From the NCBI GenBank assembly GCA_009779855.1, contig WRBC01000002.1, positions 124,001 to 188,000 of the forward strand: a DNA stretch of 64,000 bases, written 5' to 3'. Below the pieces are notes generated by a model, which worked only from the letters and a program-made list of their open reading frames with translations, had not been told where the DNA came from and made no database searches. Shown piece after piece: positions 6,925 to 34,675 of the stretch (the stretch's first letter is position 1; the number at the start of each line of letters is the position of its first letter). The stretch is from Coriobacteriia bacterium. Lineage in GTDB: Bacteria > Actinomycetota > Coriobacteriia > WRKU01 > WQUG01. Position numbers and translations under genes: made by a program.

Positions 6925-8901
6925 ATGAGATCGCCAAGACACACTACAGCTTATCGTTCTATATCCTTCATGTTGGCTATACTGCTTTTTCTAGCCTCGT
7001 TTGTATCTGCGCTGAACGCACCTATTGCTTATGCGTCCCCAGGTGAAGGTGTTAGCGAAATCTCTGTACCTGAAGAGGCTTCCTCACTTTCCCCTGATGA
7101 CCCTGAGGTTGACGCTACGCGTATTGTTGCCTGGCCTAAAGAAAGCACAAACCCTGAAGAGGTAGAAGAGTCAGTCATTGAGGTAGTTGAAGATATGGAA
7201 GCTTCAGAAGAGACCTCAATAGACGCAGAAATAATTGCAAATCCTGGTGCAGATGATTTTGAGTCTCTTGTTATTGTTGAAGGCGATGAGCAGGTCACTG
7301 AAGACCTAATAGATCAGATGATGGCTACAGGACTATTTGAAACTGTTGATTATGACGTACTTATTGATCCGCTGGCTGTCTACACTGCCACGCCTAATGA
7401 CACGCTTTATCCTAGTGCGGGATCATGGGGTCTTAAGCCCTTTCCTGGAGCGAATTTCTCTGCAGTATGGGCTAGGCTTGACCTAGCTAGGGGTAAATCA
7501 GATACGGCACCAATCGCTATGATAGACACGGGATTTGATCTTACCCTAGAAGATCGTGGTCCTAATATTGTTGCTGCCTACGACTTTGCCCTATTCAGAA
7601 GTAGCGTGACTCCACAATCACGTACACAACTTGCCTATCACGGAACCTCTACTGCGGGTGTTATAGGAGCTGCAACTAACAACAAAAAAGGAGTTGCGGG
7701 TGCTGCCTGGGACAATAAGGTGATTATCTATAAAGCAACTGATGCTAATGATAATCTATATCTTTCAGCAGTCACAAATTCAGTAAATGATGTTGTTGCA
7801 AAACGTAATGCACGTATAATTAATATGTCTTTAGGGGGCACAGCGTTTCCATCCTACTTCCAGATGGCTATAGATTCTGCTGTTAATTCAGGAATCTTAG
7901 TAGTTGCTGCTGCAGGAAATACAGCCCAACAAGGAAACGTAACCCTGTATCCCGCTGCCTATCCCCCTGTTTTGTCTGTAGCCTCTATTGGACCTACGGG
8001 AGCATGGTCAAGTTTTTCCACATACAATTCAGAGGTTAACATTGCTGCCCCAGGAGAACAGATTTCTGTTTTGCGCTATAGCAATACCTACAGCTATGCT
8101 TCAGGAACATCTTTCGCTGCACCGCATGTTTCAGCGGCTGCCGCATTAGTATGGAGGGCTGCCCCTAATCTTAGCGCAGCGCAGGTTAAAAACATTCTTA
8201 TTAATACTGCAAAGCCCATTGGTACAAAGGGTAATACTAAAACAGGGGCGGGTGCTTTAGACGCAGCAATGGCTTATGAGACTGCTTTGGGTTTGCCTTT
8301 CCAGCCAAAAATTACAAGGGTTGACCGCGGCCGGGGAAATGTAAAGCTAACCTGGAGCTATAACACCAATAGTCCTCATTCTGTTACTGGGTATGTTCTT
8401 TGGTACCGTGCAAGCAGTCAGAAGAATTGGTCTGTGAGGAATATAAGTACTCAAGCAAAGCAGTACAGCTATACCGTAGGAGGACTTAAGGACAATACTA
8501 AGTACTACTTTAAAGTTGCTGCACTGACTACAAAAGGAAAGGGTCCCTTTTCTACTTATGTGGAAGGCACTACTTATCCGCCTAGCGTGCTGTCCTCAAA
8601 GCAGACTATGAAAATTAGGCGCGGACAATCTGCATGGCTGTACGTGGCTCCCCACTACTGTGTAAGACGAAGCCAGAAGGTTACTTGGAAAAGCTCTAAT
8701 CCTAGAGTAGCTACCGTATCAAATCTGGGAAAAGCTGCCATGAAGAAAGGGTCAGGAGCTTGGACAGGAACTTCCTTGACAGATAAAGCAGTTGCACGAA
8801 AAGGAAGGAAACTTGTGATTAAGGGAGAAAGAAAAGGAACTTGCTATCTTACCTTTAGCTCAAGTGGAGCTACTCGCAAAGTTAAAGTAGTTGTTTATTA
8901 G
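6925..8901 (+). CDS. Secreted S8 subtilisin-like serine protease with Fn3-like and Ig-like C-terminal domains
   Basis: Signal peptide; catalytic motifs AMIDTGFD, YHGTSTAGVIGA and SGTSFAAPHVSAAAAL; acidic propeptide-like region; Fn3-like segment (PKITRVDRGRGNVKLTW...). Confidence 0.9.
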   Translation: MRSPRHTTAYRSISFMLAILLFLASFVSALNAPIAYASPGEGVSEISVPEEASSLSPDDPEVDATRIVAWPKESTNPEEVEESVIEVVEDMEASEETSIDAEIIANPGADDFESLVIVEGDEQVTEDLIDQMMATGLFETVDYDVLIDPLAVYTATPNDTLYPSAGSWGLKPFPGANFSAVWARLDLARGKSDTAPIAMIDTGFDLTLEDRGPNIVAAYDFALFRSSVTPQSRTQLAYHGTSTAGVIGAATNNKKGVAGAAWDNKVIIYKATDANDNLYLSAVTNSVNDVVAKRNARIINMSLGGTAFPSYFQMAIDSAVNSGILVVAAAGNTAQQGNVTLYPAAYPPVLSVASIGPTGAWSSFSTYNSEVNIAAPGEQISVLRYSNTYSYASGTSFAAPHVSAAAALVWRAAPNLSAAQVKNILINTAKPIGTKGNTKTGAGALDAAMAYETALGLPFQPKITRVDRGRGNVKLTWSYNTNSPHSVTGYVLWYRASSQKNWSVRNISTQAKQYSYTVGGLKDNTKYYFKVAALTTKGKGPFSTYVEGTTYPPSVLSSKQTMKIRRGQSAWLYVAPHYCVRRSQKVTWKSSNPRVATVSNLGKAAMKKGSGAWTGTSLTDKAVARKGRKLVIKGERKGTCYLTFSSSGATRKVKVVVY

Positions 8902-25427: not shown

Positions 25428-26377
25428 ATATGGCAGCTACGCCAGATTTGCAACCAGTAGCACCTCAGAAATCCGTAGTGAGTATTTCCCTGGGTTCATC
25501 TGCACGCGATCATCAAGCAGAGATTCAATTAGGCAATCAGTATTTTTCAGTACACCGTGAAGGCACAGATGGTGACTCCGATGTGCTTAAACGCAGATTG
25601 GTAGAGCTAGATGCAGATCCTACGGTTGCTGCTATTGGCCTAGGAGGGACTGATCTTTTTCTTAATGCTGCAGATCGCACTTACTGGCTTCGTGAAACGA
25701 AATCACTTGCAAAAATTGTGCGCAATAAAGCACTGGTGGATGGGTCTGGTCTCAAAGGGGCTGTAGAGGCTGATACGGTTCGTCACCTGCGCGATGATCT
25801 TGGGATAGATCTCTTAGAAAAAAGGGTACTTATCACCTCAGCTGTAGATCGTTGGGGACTGGGAATGGCCTTTTGTGACGCAGGAGTAGATACAGATTTT
25901 GCAGATCTTTTCTACATATTGGGCTTGCGCAAGATTATTCGGGACAGAAAAACGCTGACCCGTGTTGTGCGTATGGCGGCACCCCTTGCAGTTCAGCTAC
26001 CTTTTGCCTGGTTGTACCCTTCAGGCTCTGACCATACTTCAGAGCCAAAGCTGCATCCGTGGACCGATAAACTCTACGAGGACTACGATATTATTGCTGG
26101 TGACTATAAGTACATTGCAAAATACATGCCACCCAATCTTAAAGATACTTGGGTCATCACTAATACAACAACGGAAGAAGACGTTGAATTCTTGCGTTCA
26201 CGCGGGGTAAGTAAGCTAATAACCACAACACCCCGTCTTGAGGGACGTACCTTTGGTACGAATGTGATGGAGGCTCTTTTAGTAGCTGCAGCGGGGGAGA
26301 GTCATCCATTAAGCCCACAGGGGTATTTGGATCTTTTGGCGAAGTATGACTTGCGCCCAAGTGTTCAAGAACTGTAG
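25403..26377 (+). CDS. Quinate 5-dehydrogenase-like conserved protein (function uncertain)
   Basis: GLGGTDLFLNAADRTYWLRETKSLAKIV..., DYDIIAGDYKYIAKYMPPNLKD; overlaps the preceding gene. Confidence 0.55.
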   Translation: MGSIKAPVDMAATPDLQPVAPQKSVVSISLGSSARDHQAEIQLGNQYFSVHREGTDGDSDVLKRRLVELDADPTVAAIGLGGTDLFLNAADRTYWLRETKSLAKIVRNKALVDGSGLKGAVEADTVRHLRDDLGIDLLEKRVLITSAVDRWGLGMAFCDAGVDTDFADLFYILGLRKIIRDRKTLTRVVRMAAPLAVQLPFAWLYPSGSDHTSEPKLHPWTDKLYEDYDIIAGDYKYIAKYMPPNLKDTWVITNTTTEEDVEFLRSRGVSKLITTTPRLEGRTFGTNVMEALLVAAAGESHPLSPQGYLDLLAKYDLRPSVQEL

Positions 26378-26458
26378 AGGGTTATTGCTGCATACTATAT
26401 ATGACTAAGTATCAGCATTTCATAATTCCTGCACTACAATATGTAAATATGCAAAAAA

Positions 26459-26507
26459 TTATGTAATAGTTGTTACATAACCCCCCCCCCCCATTTCCTG
26501 CCATAAT
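26459..26507 (+). promoter_or_regulatory. Dyad operator plus C12 tract plus -10-like CATAAT upstream of an adhesin gene
   Basis: TTATGTAA-TAGTTG-TTACATAA (26459-26480), CCCCCCCCCCCC (26481-26492), CATAAT (26502-26507). Confidence 0.6.
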
Positions 26508-26585
26508 ACATTTACGCATAAGGTGTGTGTGGCTCCTCATGTGTCGTTTGACGATGCAAAACTAAATGGAATTGAGGTAGATTCT

Positions 26586-29500
26586 ATGGCCCCACGATCA
26601 GGTACCCTGCGGAAATTTTCTTTTAGGAAATTCTCCTTGCGCAAGAAAATAATTGTTTCTCTTTTAGCTGTCCTTTTGGTGGCTCTTCCCTTGTTAGCAG
26701 TAGCCAACCCTGATGTAGTGCAGTCTGCTGCAAGTCAGATTCAGCAACTTTTTGTAGGATCACAGACTTCTTCTGAATCTGTTACTGCGCGAGACTTGCC
26801 CAGGGGCGGAGAAGGGGATATCTTATCTCAGAGACTAGCTATACCACTAAGTACTCCTGTTCCTGTGTCTTCAGAGACAGAACTGCGGACTGCCATCAAT
26901 GCGGGTGAGGATTACATTGAGCTGACTCAAAGTTTTACAGCGGCAGGTGTATTTGCTGTTGGTTCACACACTCCTACTATTGTGAGTGACGTAAATGGTC
27001 CTCACACGATTACAAGAAATTCAGGCACAACACGCCACTTCACTGTTGGGGTAGATGGATCGCTTACTTTAGGAAACATCATTCTAGAAGGTGATCATGA
27101 AAATGTTGCGGGTAATCACGGCGGGGTAGGACTTACGGGTGTAAGGGCTAGACTCACCCTTAATGATGGTGCCGTTATTACTGGCAATAGGTTTAGTATG
27201 GGTGGTGGAGTAGATGTAAATGCTAATCAGTCAACACTCATTATGAATGCAGGCTCTGTCGTAACCAATAATAGGGCAAATACTGGTGGCGGTGTACGTA
27301 TCAATTCGGGACTTAATATACCTGGAGTAAACTCAGGAACAAACCCGCCCGTTACTATAAATCCTGGTGCGACAATTAGTTATAACCAGGCTGGAACTAA
27401 CCCCTCATCAGGTTCAGCCATCGCTGGTGGCGGTATTTGGGTAAGCGAATCCTCGCTTGTCATGAATGGTGGAAGCATCCTTAACAATACCTCAATGGGT
27501 CCTGGCGGTGCTATTAGCTTTACCGGTCAAACAAGTGGACCAGGGGGACAGCATCAGCAGCATTTCACTATGAATGATGGGCTTGTTGATGGTAATGTTT
27601 CTCACGGAACCACTTTAGGTGGCGGGGCTTTCAGTATCACTACAGGGATCGGGGAAACACTTAACCGAATTATTCCACACTACAATTTCTATGGGGGCAC
27701 TGTTAGTAATAACAGAGATCATTCCACCGGCTGGAGAAGAACTGGCGGCGGAATGGATGCCAGCGGGGCAAATAGAATCACGATTGATAATATCTGGACG
27801 GGTAATCGCTCAGAGAATGGGGATGGTGGTGCCTTTAGTGTCTCGAGTACTGCTGGGGGCTATCAAACTGTTATCATTAGGGAAAATGCAGAGATAACGT
27901 ATAATTTCTCTCATGGTGTAGGTGGTGCCATCTATCTCACGCCAAATGATGAGGTACGGTTCGCTGCACAGGGTATGAGGAACCACCTCTATATGCATGG
28001 AGGAACGATTGCCTATAACACCACACGTTCTGGCATGCTTGGTGGCGGAATATACCTCGAACATATGCAGTGGAATATTCCGAATCCTGAAGCCACAAAT
28101 TTGGGCCTAACTCCAGGAATGCACTGGAGTGGTGCTGGCATGACTTTTCATGGTGGTGAAATCAGAAACAATGGCTACACTACCGATCCTGGCAGTGGAA
28201 ATGCTACCGTTCAAGTTTTTGCTGGTGGCGGTGTGTACGTAAGACACTTCGCTGAATTTGTAGCAACGGGACAAAGCGACAGTGCTATTGCAGGCAACAG
28301 GGCAACGCTTGATGGGGGAGGAATTTTTACTGAAGCCTTCCAGAATGAGCCTATTCTTGCAAGGTGTTCAAATGTACACACGCCAAACGGCCTACCTAGC
28401 GGTTCTCCTATTACAGAGCAGTGCAATCTCTTTCCCTATCACAATCTGGTTATTGATAGGGAGGTAGCTTTTGCGGGTAATATCGCAGGACGCGGCAGCT
28501 TTGCTAATCCCAACAATCCAGAAGGTACAAACATTGACTTCCCTCTTAGCGGGCCGTCTGTGTTTGCCCCTATCTTCATGCATACGCTGAATAATGCAGA
28601 CATTAATTATAGAAGGTCTGCTACAGTAGTTCTTCACAAGACACTGACCATGCCAGAAGATGTTGCAACGCCTAGCCCGCTGCCTACCTTTGACTTTACC
28701 TTTACTCCCGTACAGTTTCAGTTAAGCGGTGGCGGATTCTCAAGACCTGTTGCTGACTTCCAGACCTTGCTAGCAAGTCCGCAGACCGTTGCACTTAATT
28801 CCGCTACAACTACTACTGCATCAGGTGCGCGAACTATCACGGGGACACTTAATGTTCTTCAGTTACTCGAGTCCCTTCAGCCTTTCCCAGGCGCAGGAGT
28901 ATTTGCGTGGACAGTAAGCGAGGTAGATGGCAGTTCTGGGACTACTCCGCCATTAGAGATGACCTATGATACAGATACACATTTCCAGTTAAGGGTAGCT
29001 ACAAACGCTAGTGGTAACATTACCGCTGTAGGGGTCTTCGAGTTGGACGAAATTTCAGGTAATCTGGTCCCAGGCAATGAAGTCGCCAGTGGCGGCATGA
29101 GCTTTGTAAATAACTACACGGTAGTGATCCCGCCCCCAGAAATGGGGATTACGAAGACGCTCACCCTGCCAGAAGGAACACCTCTTCCGACGCCGATAAG
29201 CTTTGATTTCCAGTTTACGCCGGTAACGCAAAGGCTTAATAATGCTGCACCTTACATTTATTCAAGAGCAGATCAGCCAACGATTAGTCCAAACCCTATA
29301 ACTATACCCTTAAGTTCTGCAACAGCAACTACTACTGCAGGCACAACGACACTTGTGGGACACTTTGATTTAGGTGCACTGCTTAATAATTTAACCTTCC
29401 CAGGTGGGGGAATCTTTGTCTGGAACTTGCATGAAATAGCAGGATCATCCGGTACTGTTATTCCTTCAACGGTCACCTATGACCAGAACCGTTTCCAGAT

Positions 29501-30260
29501 AAGGGTGCATGTAGACAGGCATGGAACTCCTGTAAACATAGAGGTTATAGAGCTTGAGCTTGTTTCAGGGTCCTGGGTACCGAATCTTGATAACAAGCCA
29601 GATGATATCGAGTTTGTGAATGTGTACAGAGGACTGGGGGATATGGATGTCTCTAAGACTATTCCCAGTACTGACAGGAACTTGCTAGCTAACCTTAATA
29701 CGTTCTTTGATTTTAGTATTACACTTACGGCACATAATGCGCTGAGTACTGGGGACGGAACGACTCCGGTACCGCTGCCAGCTGCGGTAACTGCGACTAT
29801 CATAGGACGTGATGGGAGCCCTGTTGCTGCACCAAGAAACCCCGTAACTATTGCTATTTCTTCAGGCGTGGGAACTCAGGATTTCCAGCTGATGCACGGG
29901 GAAAGGTTAGTTCTGGATGGGACGCATGGAAGCACCAGATTGCCTTATGGAACTACCTGGCAAGTAACAGAATATGCCCATCCGCAGTTTGCTCCAACGG
30001 TGGAAATAACTGTAGGGGGAACCACTTTGACTCCAGCGCTTACCGAAGATCCGAATACTAACCTTTCTACAGGAAACCGAATCCTCACAGGTGGAGGAGG
30101 CAATTCGGCTGACTTTGAGAATAACCATCAGTTTGCCCCTCCGACAGGACTTATAGTGCAGAGTGCACCGATTGCTTTGGCACTGCTTGCCGCCCTAGCC
30201 CTGCTTGTGCTAATTGCTCTTCGCAGAAGGCGGACTATAGAGAAGATGCCACTTGTCTAG
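26586..30260 (+). CDS. Large surface adhesin: right-handed beta-helix-like head, streptococcal-pilin-type isopeptide-like modules, C-terminal APPTG plus TM anchor
   Basis: Start moved to MAPRSGTLRKFSFRK (GAGGTAG ribosome-binding site). GGG/NNT-rich repeats; repeated KTLTLPE...FDFQFTPV...YDQNRFQIRV modules; HQFAPPTGLIVQSAPIALALLAALALLVLIALRRRR. Confidence 0.85.
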   Translation: MAPRSGTLRKFSFRKFSLRKKIIVSLLAVLLVALPLLAVANPDVVQSAASQIQQLFVGSQTSSESVTARDLPRGGEGDILSQRLAIPLSTPVPVSSETELRTAINAGEDYIELTQSFTAAGVFAVGSHTPTIVSDVNGPHTITRNSGTTRHFTVGVDGSLTLGNIILEGDHENVAGNHGGVGLTGVRARLTLNDGAVITGNRFSMGGGVDVNANQSTLIMNAGSVVTNNRANTGGGVRINSGLNIPGVNSGTNPPVTINPGATISYNQAGTNPSSGSAIAGGGIWVSESSLVMNGGSILNNTSMGPGGAISFTGQTSGPGGQHQQHFTMNDGLVDGNVSHGTTLGGGAFSITTGIGETLNRIIPHYNFYGGTVSNNRDHSTGWRRTGGGMDASGANRITIDNIWTGNRSENGDGGAFSVSSTAGGYQTVIIRENAEITYNFSHGVGGAIYLTPNDEVRFAAQGMRNHLYMHGGTIAYNTTRSGMLGGGIYLEHMQWNIPNPEATNLGLTPGMHWSGAGMTFHGGEIRNNGYTTDPGSGNATVQVFAGGGVYVRHFAEFVATGQSDSAIAGNRATLDGGGIFTEAFQNEPILARCSNVHTPNGLPSGSPITEQCNLFPYHNLVIDREVAFAGNIAGRGSFANPNNPEGTNIDFPLSGPSVFAPIFMHTLNNADINYRRSATVVLHKTLTMPEDVATPSPLPTFDFTFTPVQFQLSGGGFSRPVADFQTLLASPQTVALNSATTTTASGARTITGTLNVLQLLESLQPFPGAGVFAWTVSEVDGSSGTTPPLEMTYDTDTHFQLRVATNASGNITAVGVFELDEISGNLVPGNEVASGGMSFVNNYTVVIPPPEMGITKTLTLPEGTPLPTPISFDFQFTPVTQRLNNAAPYIYSRADQPTISPNPITIPLSSATATTTAGTTTLVGHFDLGALLNNLTFPGGGIFVWNLHEIAGSSGTVIPSTVTYDQNRFQIRVHVDRHGTPVNIEVIELELVSGSWVPNLDNKPDDIEFVNVYRGLGDMDVSKTIPSTDRNLLANLNTFFDFSITLTAHNALSTGDGTTPVPLPAAVTATIIGRDGSPVAAPRNPVTIAISSGVGTQDFQLMHGERLVLDGTHGSTRLPYGTTWQVTEYAHPQFAPTVEITVGGTTLTPALTEDPNTNLSTGNRILTGGGGNSADFENNHQFAPPTGLIVQSAPIALALLAALALLVLIALRRRRTIEKMPLV

Positions 30261-30342
30261 CTAAGGACTTGAGAACACTAGCTTAAGCATGCTCAAATAA
30301 AGGTAGTTCATACTTGTCGGTTGCTATCTTTTTGAGAAATAA

Positions 30343-30384
30343 GAAGAAGGTCACACTTTTCATCGCTTTAGTGTGACCTTCTTC
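30343..30384. terminator. Bidirectional terminator between the adhesin gene and lysR
   Basis: GAAGAAGGTCACACT...AGTGTGACCTTCTTC perfect 15-bp stem. Confidence 0.88.
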
Positions 30385-30423
30385 GCTTTATTAATCTTAT
30401 GAGAATGGTACTGTGGCGGTTTG

Positions 30424-31311
30424 TCAACCAATGTGATCTAAGAAGAGCTTTACTAGGTGAGAGTGCTTAACTCGTGTATTGAGTACAGTATAAATCTTTC
30501 GGTGGGGGATTCTTTCTTCACAGCGCAACCTGACGATTTGTCCTTGCGCTAGAGCGTCACGAGCGGCCAGTTCAGAAACAATTGAGACCCCAAGGCCGCT
30601 GGCAACTGAGTTGATGACGCTTTGAGTGTTGCCCATATTGACGCAGGACTGTATTTTCTTAAGATCAACGTTATTGTCAGTAAAAAATTTCTCATATTGG
30701 ATTCGCGTGCCTGAGCCTACTTCCCTAGAGATAAAATTCCCTTCGTAGAGTAGGTTTTCCAACGTGTAGACTCTTGTGCTGAATAATGTGTTTGTAGCTG
30801 CAGATCCAATGAAGATAAGTTCTTCATCCGTGAAGACATTGAAGCTACATGTAGGGTTTTCGATGATGCTTCCGCTGAAGCCTATGTCTACCTTGTTTTC
30901 TGCGACTGCCTGTGTGGCCGCTGCACTATCTTTTTGATCTATAGTGAGGGTGACCTTAGGGTAGAGCGCATGAAATTCTGCTAGGATTTTTGGCAGAAGG
31001 TAGGATGCGGGAACACTTGATGCTGTGATACGTATTTCACCACTATGGTCCTCGCTAAGGTCCTTCATGGCATCGACGGACTCGCTTCGTAAGGCGATAA
31101 GTTCTTTTGCACGTGCAAGGAAGCGCTGGCCTGCAAGGGTAGTGGATACGGTTTTTGTAGATCGGTTAAGAAGCGTTATGTCCAGTTCGCGTTCTAGGGT
31201 GCTAATGTAGGTGCTGACGCTGGGCTGTGAGACGTGGAGCTCTTTGGCTGCTTTTGAGAAACTACCCAGCTCGACTACCTTTATATAGGCTTCTAGCTGT
31301 CTAAACTCCAT
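30424..31311 (-). CDS. LysR-family transcriptional regulator
   Basis: MEFRQLEAYIKVVELGSFSKAAKELHVSQPSVSTYISTLERELDITLLNRS. Confidence 0.95.
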   Translation of the reverse strand: MEFRQLEAYIKVVELGSFSKAAKELHVSQPSVSTYISTLERELDITLLNRSTKTVSTTLAGQRFLARAKELIALRSESVDAMKDLSEDHSGEIRITASSVPASYLLPKILAEFHALYPKVTLTIDQKDSAAATQAVAENKVDIGFSGSIIENPTCSFNVFTDEELIFIGSAATNTLFSTRVYTLENLLYEGNFISREVGSGTRIQYEKFFTDNNVDLKKIQSCVNMGNTQSVINSVASGLGVSIVSELAARDALAQGQIVRLRCEERIPHRKIYTVLNTRVKHSHLVKLFLDHIG

Positions 31312-32485
31312 GAGAAGTACCTAGTAATTCTTTAAGGCTGTTTAGTAGATAGTCGACTTCCTTTAAGGTGTTTGTGTGTCCAAAGGAGAAGCGCACCGTG
31401 CCTTGCGGGAACGTGCCCAGTGTTTTGTGTGCCGCTGGAGCGCAGTGAAGGCCGCAGCGTGTCATGATGCCGTAGTGTTTATCAAGAGTTGCTGCAATAG
31501 CAGCGTTATCGTGGCGAGGGAAGTCAACAGATACTACAGGAACCTTTTTTGTCTGTGTTAAGGCTGTTTCTGAAGTGCTGTTTTCTGCAGCAATAAGGTT
31601 TATACCTTCAATGTCTTTTGCGCTACTAATGAAGTGACGGTAAAGCTTTATTTCATGCTGATAGATGGTATCGATGCCCTGTTCAAGTAGGTGATTTATG
31701 GCGGCTTTCAGCCCCAGTATTCCAGCAATGTTCATAGTCCCTGATTCAAATTTATCAGGTAAGAAATCCGGCTGGTCAAAGCCCTGGGAAAGACTGCCTG
31801 TACCACCCCATAGGGTGGGTTGAATCTGTTTTGCAAAGTCACTTTTAACAATAAATCCGCCTATGCCCATTGGACCTAGAAGTGCTTTATGTCCTGGAAA
31901 GGCCAGGGCATCAATACTGGAGATATCAATGGGCAGCACCCCTGCAGTTTGTGCTGCATCAACTATCAGACGAAGATTGTGCTGTTTGCAGATGTTTGCG
32001 ACTTCCTGAATGGGTAGTACGGTGCCGCAGACATTTGAGGCATGGGTCATCACAACGGCTTTTGTGGTGCTGCGAATCAAGGGAAGGATGTCCTCTGAAT
32101 TGAGCGACCCGTCACTGCTGCATTCTGCGACATCATAAGTCACTTTGCGCTGTTGACTGAGCGCATGTAGAGGGCGCATGACGGCATTATGTTCCATGGA
32201 TGTCGTGATGACATGGTCGCCCTTTGCCAGGAAGCCACTAAGGATAGCATTCATCGCATAGGTGAGGCTGGGGGTAAAGATTACTGCGCGTGGATCTGCT
32301 GCGTTAAAGAACTTAGCAAGCAATTCGCGTGCTTGTAAGATTTCCATGGCGATGTCAAAGCTGGCAGCATATCCACCGCGTCCAATATTGTAGGCGCCTT
32401 TATTAAGGTAGCTAGTTATCGCCTCTGTGACACCAGGAGCTTTGGGGATGGAGGTAGAACTATGGTCGAAATAGGCGTGTTTCAT
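31301..32485 (-). CDS. Class V aminotransferase / cysteine desulfurase-like protein
   Basis: MKHAYFDHSSTSIPKAPGV; MEHNAVMRPLH; VVMTHASNVCGT; VDAAQTAGVLPIDI; FPGHKALLGPMGIGG; RCGLHCAP. Start moved from the track; overlaps lysR. Confidence 0.85.
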   Translation of the reverse strand: MKHAYFDHSSTSIPKAPGVTEAITSYLNKGAYNIGRGGYAASFDIAMEILQARELLAKFFNAADPRAVIFTPSLTYAMNAILSGFLAKGDHVITTSMEHNAVMRPLHALSQQRKVTYDVAECSSDGSLNSEDILPLIRSTTKAVVMTHASNVCGTVLPIQEVANICKQHNLRLIVDAAQTAGVLPIDISSIDALAFPGHKALLGPMGIGGFIVKSDFAKQIQPTLWGGTGSLSQGFDQPDFLPDKFESGTMNIAGILGLKAAINHLLEQGIDTIYQHEIKLYRHFISSAKDIEGINLIAAENSTSETALTQTKKVPVVSVDFPRHDNAAIAATLDKHYGIMTRCGLHCAPAAHKTLGTFPQGTVRFSFGHTNTLKEVDYLLNSLKELLGTSHGV

Positions 32486-32550
32486 CTGGTGTGCTCCTAA
32501 GTGGATTGTAAAGAGGCCGAGCATGTAGTAACCAAACACATATTAGAGTT

Positions 32551-32582
32551 ATTTATAGATTGCATCAATTTCATCAATAAAT
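32551..32582. promoter_or_regulatory. Candidate LysR operator in the divergent intergenic region
   Basis: ATTTAT...ATAAAT dyad containing a direct repeat of CATCAAT at 32563 and 32572. Confidence 0.35.
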
Positions 32583-32654
32583 ACTATCATAGCGACGGAT
32601 AATCGGTGCTAGACTTTTCAGTCAAGCAATGCAAAAGAGACAACAGGAGAGACC

Positions 32655-33803
32655 ATGCCGGTGGCAGATGATAAAAAACAGATAAAAGAAGAAGATATAG
32701 CGAAAAAGGAAAGCACCTTGAAAGAGGAGGGCACTTCGAAGGCAAAGACGTTTCACTTGCTGCTATTGCCTATTGTGGGTGTAGTAGTTGTGGCGGTGGC
32801 TTTGCTACTTCAGCACTTGGGTAACCCAGCAAACATGGGCTTTTGTATTGCCTGTTTCCTGCGCGACACTGCAGGTGCTGTGGGCTTACACTCCGCTGCA
32901 GTAGTTCAGTACGTAAGACCAGAAATCATCGGTATCATTTTGGGTGTATTTATCTTTGCGCTTGTACGGGGGGAATTTAAACCAAAGGGCGGCTCTGCTC
33001 CTGTGACGCGTTTTGTCCTTGGTTTTGCCATGATGATGGGTGCACTGATATTTTTGGGCTGTCCGTTGCGCATGCTGCTGCGTATTGCGGCAGGCGATCT
33101 TAATGCAATTGTAGGACTTTTTGGATTAGTAGCGGGTATTTTTATAGGAGCACTTTTCCTAAAGAGGGGCTTTTCGCTGAAGCGCAATTACGATCAGGGT
33201 AAAGCGGAGGGATCACTGCTACCTGTTATTGCACTTATTTTGCTGGGTATTGTTTTATTTGCGCCGGTAATCTTGCTGGTTTCAGCCGAAGGTCCTGGAA
33301 GCATGCATGCCCCGCTGCTTATTGCGCTTGCCGCAGGTCTTATTGTGGGTGCGCTGGGCTTTATAACCAGACTTTGCTTTACGGGTGGCATCAGAGACGC
33401 AATCTTAATGAAGAAATTTCCACCTATGTTGTGGGCCTTTATTGCCATTCTGGTTGTTGGCTTGATTGGAAACCTGGTACTGGGAACTTTTAACCTAGGT
33501 TTTGCTGATCAACCAATTACGCATACCGACGGATTGTGGAATTTCCTAGGTATGACCTTAGTTGGTCTTAGCGCGACCCTGCTTGCAGGATGCCCTTTCA
33601 GGCAGTTAGTTCTTGCGGGAAGCGGCAACTCTGACAGTGTGATGGCTGTAGCGGGTATGGTTGTGGGTGCTGCCTTTATGCATAACTTCAATATGGCATC
33701 AAGCCCTGCAGGAATTGGTGAGAATGCCATCTATGGTTTCGTGATTGTTGCTGCTATAGTAGTAGGGATTGCCGTTTACAATACCTTTTTCAGAAGTAAG
33801 TAG
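32655..33803 (+). CDS. YedE-like membrane protein (putative selenium/sulfur-compound transporter)
   Basis: GFCIACFLRDTAGAVGLH, LGCPLRMLLRIAAGD, LCFTGGIRDAILMK, AGCPFRQLVLAGSGNSD. Confidence 0.85.
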   Translation: MPVADDKKQIKEEDIAKKESTLKEEGTSKAKTFHLLLLPIVGVVVVAVALLLQHLGNPANMGFCIACFLRDTAGAVGLHSAAVVQYVRPEIIGIILGVFIFALVRGEFKPKGGSAPVTRFVLGFAMMMGALIFLGCPLRMLLRIAAGDLNAIVGLFGLVAGIFIGALFLKRGFSLKRNYDQGKAEGSLLPVIALILLGIVLFAPVILLVSAEGPGSMHAPLLIALAAGLIVGALGFITRLCFTGGIRDAILMKKFPPMLWAFIAILVVGLIGNLVLGTFNLGFADQPITHTDGLWNFLGMTLVGLSATLLAGCPFRQLVLAGSGNSDSVMAVAGMVVGAAFMHNFNMASSPAGIGENAIYGFVIVAAIVVGIAVYNTFFRSK

Positions 33804-33872
33804 CGTTGGTGAGCGCGGACACGATTAGTGCGAAACCAATGGGTGAAAAGGGAAGCCTTTAAAGAAAGAAGC

Positions 33873-34121
33873 ATGAACAACTACATAGCAACTTTTTATA
33901 GTCACTTTGGAGCTCTTTCACTTTGCAAAGAGCTCCAACAACGCGAAGGTGCTGCTAACACCGCAGAGCTCATACCCGTTCCACGTGAACTGAGTACTTC
34001 GTGTGGGGTGTGTGTTAGTTTTCAGGGTGACGATTGGGTTTGCGCAAAGGATGTTGCGATTGATCTTGAGGGCATCTATCGAGTTGCAGGTGGCAGATAT
34101 GAGGAACTGTTTACTGCTTAG
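33873..34121 (+). CDS. DUF3343-like putative Se/S carrier protein
   Basis: MNNYIATFYSHFGALSLCKELQQREGAANTAELIPVPRELSTSCGVCVSF; size and position next to the YedE-like gene. Confidence 0.75.
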   Translation: MNNYIATFYSHFGALSLCKELQQREGAANTAELIPVPRELSTSCGVCVSFQGDDWVCAKDVAIDLEGIYRVAGGRYEELFTA

Positions 34122-34219
34122 TCTTATGGGTAGGTTGTTTCGTTTCGTTAAGGTAGAGTAATAGGGAAGAATTTGCCTTTCCCGGGCTAGTTCAGGGCAC
34201 GCCTGACTGCTTAGATTGT

Positions 34220-34675
34220 TCACGTGCAGTTGGCACGCTCTTCTTCGCCAGTTTCGTCAGGCCTTTCTTCAAGGAGTCTTTCTAGCTGTGTCGCGATAAA
34301 GGCTACGTATCCCTTGCAGACTTGTTTGCTAACACTGGATTCAGCGTCAGGCTTCAATTCAAGGCAGGTAGTATACCCGTATTGTTCTTCGAAAGAATCT
34401 ATGAGTGCCTTAGTGTATTTGGGTAGCTCTTCATTGCGTGGTTCGCCTGGAACACGTCCAAAATGATTTCCTAATACGAGCGCTCCAGCAGCCGCTGCCC
34501 CACAAAGGTTCTTTGCACCGGTCCCTCCGCAAAAAGCAAAGGATAGTTTATTGCCCAGATTTTTATCTTCTGTGCTGATATTGTCACGCTCAGCAAAGGC
34601 AAGCCAGACGGATTCTGCGCAGCAGAACCCTTCTTCTGTGTAGAGCTGTGTTGCTCTGTTGGCAATTGTGGACAT
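34220..34675 (-). CDS. C_GCAxxG_C_C family redox/metal-binding-like protein
   Basis: GFCCAESVWLAFAE...FCGGTGAKNLCGAAAAGALVLGNHFGR. Confidence 0.85.
   Translation of the reverse strand: MSTIANRATQLYTEEGFCCAESVWLAFAERDNISTEDKNLGNKLSFAFCGGTGAKNLCGAAAAGALVLGNHFGRVPGEPRNEELPKYTKALIDSFEEQYGYTTCLELKPDAESSVSKQVCKGYVAFIATQLERLLEERPDETGEEERANCT

Follow-up and report, generated by a model that had tools for sequence, protein, structure and literature searches.

Among the closest described counterparts of the locus presented here are the fim2, fim3 and fimX promoters of Bordetella, in which a poly-C tract lies between the activator region and the -10 box of several paralogous surface genes per genome and the change of a single C alters transcription (PMC1891110). 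In the opc adhesin promoter of Neisseria meningitidis, the poly-C tract comprises about 12 residues, and the cited part of PMC3447861 reports high expression at C12 and lower expression at C11. A homopolymer between -35 and -10 alters the spacing of these elements in Neisseria porA and fetA (PMC2791445). Within the Actinomycetota, G/C tracts located inside surface-protein genes or ahead of them, including C-runs in promoters, are described for Cutibacterium (Propionibacterium) acnes and Gardnerella in the cited sections of PMC4746626 and PMC11287997. A literature search found no paper joining homopolymer phase variation and Coriobacteriia.

A promoter region resembling these systems was analyzed in a 64 kb stretch of DNA (the window) from the genome of a Coriobacteriia bacterium (G000; 1.54 Mb, 15 contigs, 93% complete, one genome of the species). 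It is probably a poly-C promoter contingency locus that belongs to a five-member set in this genome. The features of the locus are:

26378..30423, + strand: promoter-plus-gene block without a counterpart between the flanking orthologues of G002, the closest relative (gene-order comparison, L158)
26459..26480, + strand: dyad TTATGTAA-TAGTTG-TTACATAA, presumed regulator site (sequence; conservation in five promoters)
26462-26477, + strand: shared core TGTAATAGTTGTTACA inside the dyad (alignment of five promoters)
26481..26492, + strand: C12 homopolymer, presumed slippage tract (sequence, run counts, genome-wide tract search)
26493..26501, + strand: nine-base spacer ATTTCCTGC from the tract to the -10-like box (sequence)
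26499..26507, + strand: extended -10-like element TGC-CATAAT, containing the second-best -10-like hexamer of the intergenic region
26574..26579, + strand: Shine-Dalgarno-like GAGGTA (sequence)
26586..30260, + strand: gene of a large surface protein, 1224 aa (Pfam matches; sorting motif read from the sequence)
30343..30384, no strand: probable terminator used by both the adhesin gene and the convergent LysR gene, a 15-bp hairpin located between them (sequence)

The dyad (26459-26480), the C12 tract (26481-26492) and CATAAT (26502-26507) had been pointed out in an earlier, sequence-only reading of the window, and their letters and coordinates are exact. The tract had been called the only long homopolymer noticed. 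This is borne out by a run count over the 64 kb, in which C12 is the sole homopolymer of at least 8; the next longest are one A7 and one T7, and C/G runs in the rest of the window do not exceed 6 (runs of 7-11 are absent). Under an order-3 Markov model, 0.001 C-runs and 0.004 G-runs of at least 12 are expected per window. The tract thus lies far above chance, in the manner of a poly-C promoter contingency locus of the fim/opc type. An origin by chance or as an assembly artefact is very improbable. The assembled length of a homopolymer may be off by one or more and many tracts of relatives are located at contig ends, but this tract, hardly expected by chance, occurs in five homologous promoters on five contigs and is contig-internal in all of them.

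Translation of the downstream gene likely starts at ATG 26586, which lies behind GAGGTA, 93 nt from the tract end and one base past the end (26585) of the segment covered by the sequence-only reading. An alternative start from the ORF listing is GTG 26523 (1245 aa). The product, previously described as a surface protein of roughly 1.2k residues, comprises 1224 aa and is exported. It carries a signal peptide, an FctA (Spy0128-like isopeptide) domain (E 1e-9) and weak matches to DUF7601 and a streptococcal pilin linkage entry. An APPTG sortase-like motif, a membrane span and a basic tail can be read at its C-terminus. Judged by these elements, it is a sortase-type surface protein. The earlier statement that the gene's frame meets a stop upstream and contains no ATG is true at C12 and extends to all tract lengths from C6 to C18: in each case the frame runs into a stop located 3-37 nt ahead of the tract without passing an ATG, and a single upstream TTG is left open at C7, C10, C13 and C16 only. 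Translational switching at the window locus is ruled out for ATG starts at tract lengths of 6-18. Since no in-frame upstream ATG exists at C6-C18, control would be transcriptional or exerted through the leader.

The genomic surroundings of the gene differ from those in the closest relative. In G002, ~92 nt separate the orthologue of the upstream gene (77% aa identity) from the LysR orthologue downstream of it (81% aa identity), so that the promoter-plus-adhesin block is absent there. Further downstream in the window (30424-34675), a selenium-metabolism-type LysR gene, a cysteine-desulfurase-like gene, a YedE-like transporter gene and further small genes form a probable selenium cluster.

The promoter DNA was searched against G000, which yielded two further copies. 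A search for runs of nine C gave ten tracts, the surroundings of which reveal five homologous promoters:

Contig C2 (the window): intact copy, exactly twelve C
C3:182624 (L037): intact copy, exactly twelve C
C10:5235 (L040): intact copy, exactly twelve C
C12:6325 (L041): intact copy, exactly twelve C
C9:55884 (L042): decayed copy, tract CCTCCCCCC (C2TC6)

Common to the five loci is a module of a TTGTTACA half-site, the tract and a -10-like box 8-10 nt further on. All five promoters precede very large exported proteins, two of which (L037 and L041) combine RCC1 repeats, FctA and DUF7601. A profile built from the five promoters (R1) recovers exactly these five in G000 (1e-13 to 1e-16), and in nine other family genomes its values are no better than 0.03, with no convincing match. 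Neither a pattern nor a profile search detected the promoter motif in relatives. Among the family genomes examined, the module is therefore confined to G000; several relatives are incomplete, so its absence there is not certain. In a collection of species-representative genomes, TTGTTACA-N4-C8 gave 21 scattered matches in unrelated phyla, which were taken as chance. The genes ahead of the promoters are, by their sequences, unrelated (nuoN-like, purH-like, hydrogenase-like and helicase-like). The location behind unrelated operons suggests that promoter and gene start have spread together through duplication.

The mean pairwise identity of the five promoters is 80% in the dyad and 92% in the tract, compared to 54-55% in the upstream and 45-51% in the downstream flank. 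The core shared by the paralogous promoters is TG(T/A)AA-N6-TTACA with an invariant tract-side TTGTTACA, and AAT-N2-TTGTTACA is unchanged in five of five aligned promoters. Three perfect TGTAA-N6-TTACA sites are found in the whole genome, each within one of the five promoters. The description of the dyad as perfect holds for the window copy but not for the set, as the remaining promoters share just the core. Taken alone, the dyad is not significant, as perfect 8-bp dyads with loops of 3-8 number 26 in the window (loop 6 in three cases); the weight of this dyad therefore comes from the related promoters. As a marker of a genome-wide regulon the dyad was rejected, with sites of at most one mismatch occurring at chance level (59 versus 70 in the control). 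Class II activation by a CRP/FNR-type protein, suggested by the 5-6-5 dyad and by a distance of 29 nt at the decayed locus, was likewise discarded. No PF13545 match over the cut-off was obtained in the 93% complete genome; two weak partial matches were seen, one within a GntR-type gene. The likeliest binder of a 5-6-5 site is thus missing. A distance of 29 nt from the dyad centre to -10 is found solely at the decayed contig C9 locus, the four intact loci having 32, 33, 32 and 33 nt.

The distance from the tract to the -10-like hexamer varies little as well, with 9 nt in the window (CATAAT), 10 nt on contig C3 (TATAGT), 8 nt on contig C10 (TAGCCT, weak), 10 nt on contig C12 (CATAAT) and 9 nt on contig C9 (TATATT). 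At the five loci, this downstream hexamer ranks second to fourth among the hexamers of the respective intergenic region. No -35-like hexamer is present 16-18 nt before the -10-like box of the window at C12, because the tract occupies that place. A second -10-like hexamer is located upstream of the dyad at four of the five loci (TACAAT, TAAAAT, CATAAT and TAAAAT), at a conserved place of -58/-59/-60/-56 relative to the tract end. It is compatible with a tract that resides in the 5' leader, through a start upstream of the dyad or through read-through from the upstream gene, and whose length affects the folding of the leader, the stability of the RNA or termination by Rho. The upstream gene (no Pfam match, end at 26377) points in the same direction, an intrinsic terminator was not detected ahead of the tract, and P. 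acnes is reported to have leader tracts in front of surface genes (PMC4746626). This alternative is nevertheless unlikely: conservation is strongest for the dyad, the tract and the -10-like box, which are kept at a near-constant distance. A hairpin or terminator role of the dyad in RNA was rejected, as the dyad is AT-rich and its arms are not kept among the paralogues. In two of them, TGAAA faces TTACA and no compensating changes preserve the stem, a pattern more in keeping with a protein-binding site than with a hairpin in RNA.

The transcriptional, fim-like poly-C promoter proposed in the sequence-only reading is thus the best reading of the locus; it is well supported by the five paralogous promoters and by the family-wide tract landscape, while control through the leader is also compatible with the data. 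In the proposed mechanism, a putative regulator would bind TGTAA-N6-TTACA just upstream of the tract, and RNA polymerase would use the extended -10-like box that follows the tract at 8-10 nt, with the tract in place of a -35 box. Bound at the dyad, the regulator would contact RNA polymerase at -10. Slipped-strand mispairing would alter the tract by one or two C and thereby shift both the distance and the helical phase between regulator and -10, such that transcription of the surface-protein gene may change at each locus independently. The evidence points to changes in C-run length that randomly switch the five surface-protein genes up or down.

The lengths of the tracts bear on whether they vary at all. 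G000 contains eight C/G runs of at least 11, seven of them outside long ORFs. Length 12 is shared by all four intact promoter tracts and length 11 by the four remaining tracts of at least 11, which hints that 12 is favoured here. Exact C12 at four of four intact loci is equally consistent with variation and with one fixed functional length, and the tract might accordingly be read as a fixed spacer in a regulon of five genes that undergoes no phase variation. Such a role is improbable, however, given that a plain spacer could be this long without consisting of a single repeated base, that the tract of the contig C9 locus is shorter and interrupted, that long homopolymers are known slippage hotspots, and that the genome lacks MutS.

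Several further elements were observed. A Fur-like box (AATAATGAAAATCATTATT in L042) is located ~100 nt upstream of the tract in L042, L041 and partly L037, and is not evident in the window promoter. In L036 (5200-5210), a C11 run ~50 nt upstream of an alpha/beta-hydrolase-like gene is a possible promoter tract without a dyad. Two G11 tracts lie 40 nt apart in L034 (5132-5142 and 5183-5193; G000:C1:50131-50192). One is situated close to the 3' end of a LytTR-type regulator gene, the other immediately ahead of the following gene (141 aa). If each tract were G10, both ORFs would be joined into a 315-aa fusion, and tract length may thus decide between separate and fused products. Two large exported proteins follow this pair. 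In L035 (5082-5092) and L116 (1636-1646), an ATG-leader-G11 arrangement precedes the start (MKERL...) of a large exported protein by only 360-440 nt.

The mismatch repair protein MutS was searched for in the family. All ten family genomes lack a MutS_I match; among 14 control genomes, 11 gave one. The class Coriobacteriia has been reported to lack MutS-MutL as well as NucS (PMC5290159), and the gene content of G000 points to a probable place near this class. Loss of mutS raises opc tract variation in meningococci according to the cited part of PMC3447861. Runs of at least 9 are present in all seven other family genomes searched; C/G runs of this length number 0, 1 and 0 in three genomes of two neighbouring families. 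In relatives, the surface-protein genes at L112, L156 and L157 carry poly-G frame switches of the form ATGACCGTC...-G(n)-...signal peptide, and a similar switch is found in a membrane protein (L129, G005). In L112, L111 (G002), L156, L157 (G008) and L129, the tract is placed between an N-terminal leader, often starting ATGACCG..., and the signal peptide or membrane segment. The full-length product is encoded in one frame only, and some of these loci are assembled open and some closed. A comparison of contigs C117 (G11) and C120 (G12) of G002 was discarded as proof of slippage, since the two differ by what looks like an A-to-G substitution at the edge of the tract.

Other tracts were noted in passing. 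In relatives, poly-C/G tracts of 10-14 occur inside ORFs that resemble DNA methyltransferase or restriction-modification genes (L108, L120, L125 and L128) and are possible phasevarions, judged from sequence. Three paralogous surface genes of G006 (L137, L138 and L139) share gcaaaaatgta-G11/12-ctc, with tracts of 11, 12 and 11 located ~300-400 nt upstream of the start codons. In a Bifidobacteriaceae MAG record (L060, match 7907-7926), a C-run of ~13 is flanked on both sides by TTGATTGTTACAA-like copies; its layout is similar, but it is probably unrelated.

A broader view, tentative and with somewhat less than even chances of being correct, is that of a phase-variable regulon in which one regulator serves five promoters through the shared dyad and each tract independently sets obedience to it per cell. 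Sister genera would use translational poly-G switches for similar proteins, in the absence of MutS and, if this lineage belongs to the class Coriobacteriia, of NucS. If the poly-C promoter reading is true, promoter-type poly-C phase variation, best known in Bordetella and Neisseria, extends to a multi-locus set of surface proteins in a little-studied, probably actinobacterial family without MutS. Five naturally occurring versions of the promoter, including the decayed one, would allow regulator site, tract and -10 to be told apart. Heterogeneity of tract length in metagenomes of these bacteria is suggested to carry biological signal and should not be corrected away.

Compared to the described systems, the locus resembles Bordetella fim, and this extends to decay: the tracts of BPP fim3 (C6TC3) and fim2 (C9TC8) are interrupted by a T (PMC1891110), as is C2TC6 at the contig C9 locus. 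In contrast to fim, the site here is a 5-6-5 dyad that touches the tract, the products are sortase-type surface proteins rather than chaperone-usher pilins, and the phyla are distant. The opc promoter shares the tract length of about 12; it is a single locus, with no flanking dyad described in the cited part of PMC3447861, and gene and phylum are unrelated. The altered spacing in porA and fetA is similar to the model proposed here, but those promoters have a -35 element, whereas none is seen here at C12. The tracts of C. acnes and Gardnerella are found within the same phylum, and the cited sections of PMC4746626 and PMC11287997 describe no promoter module common to five paralogues, which is the arrangement present in G000.
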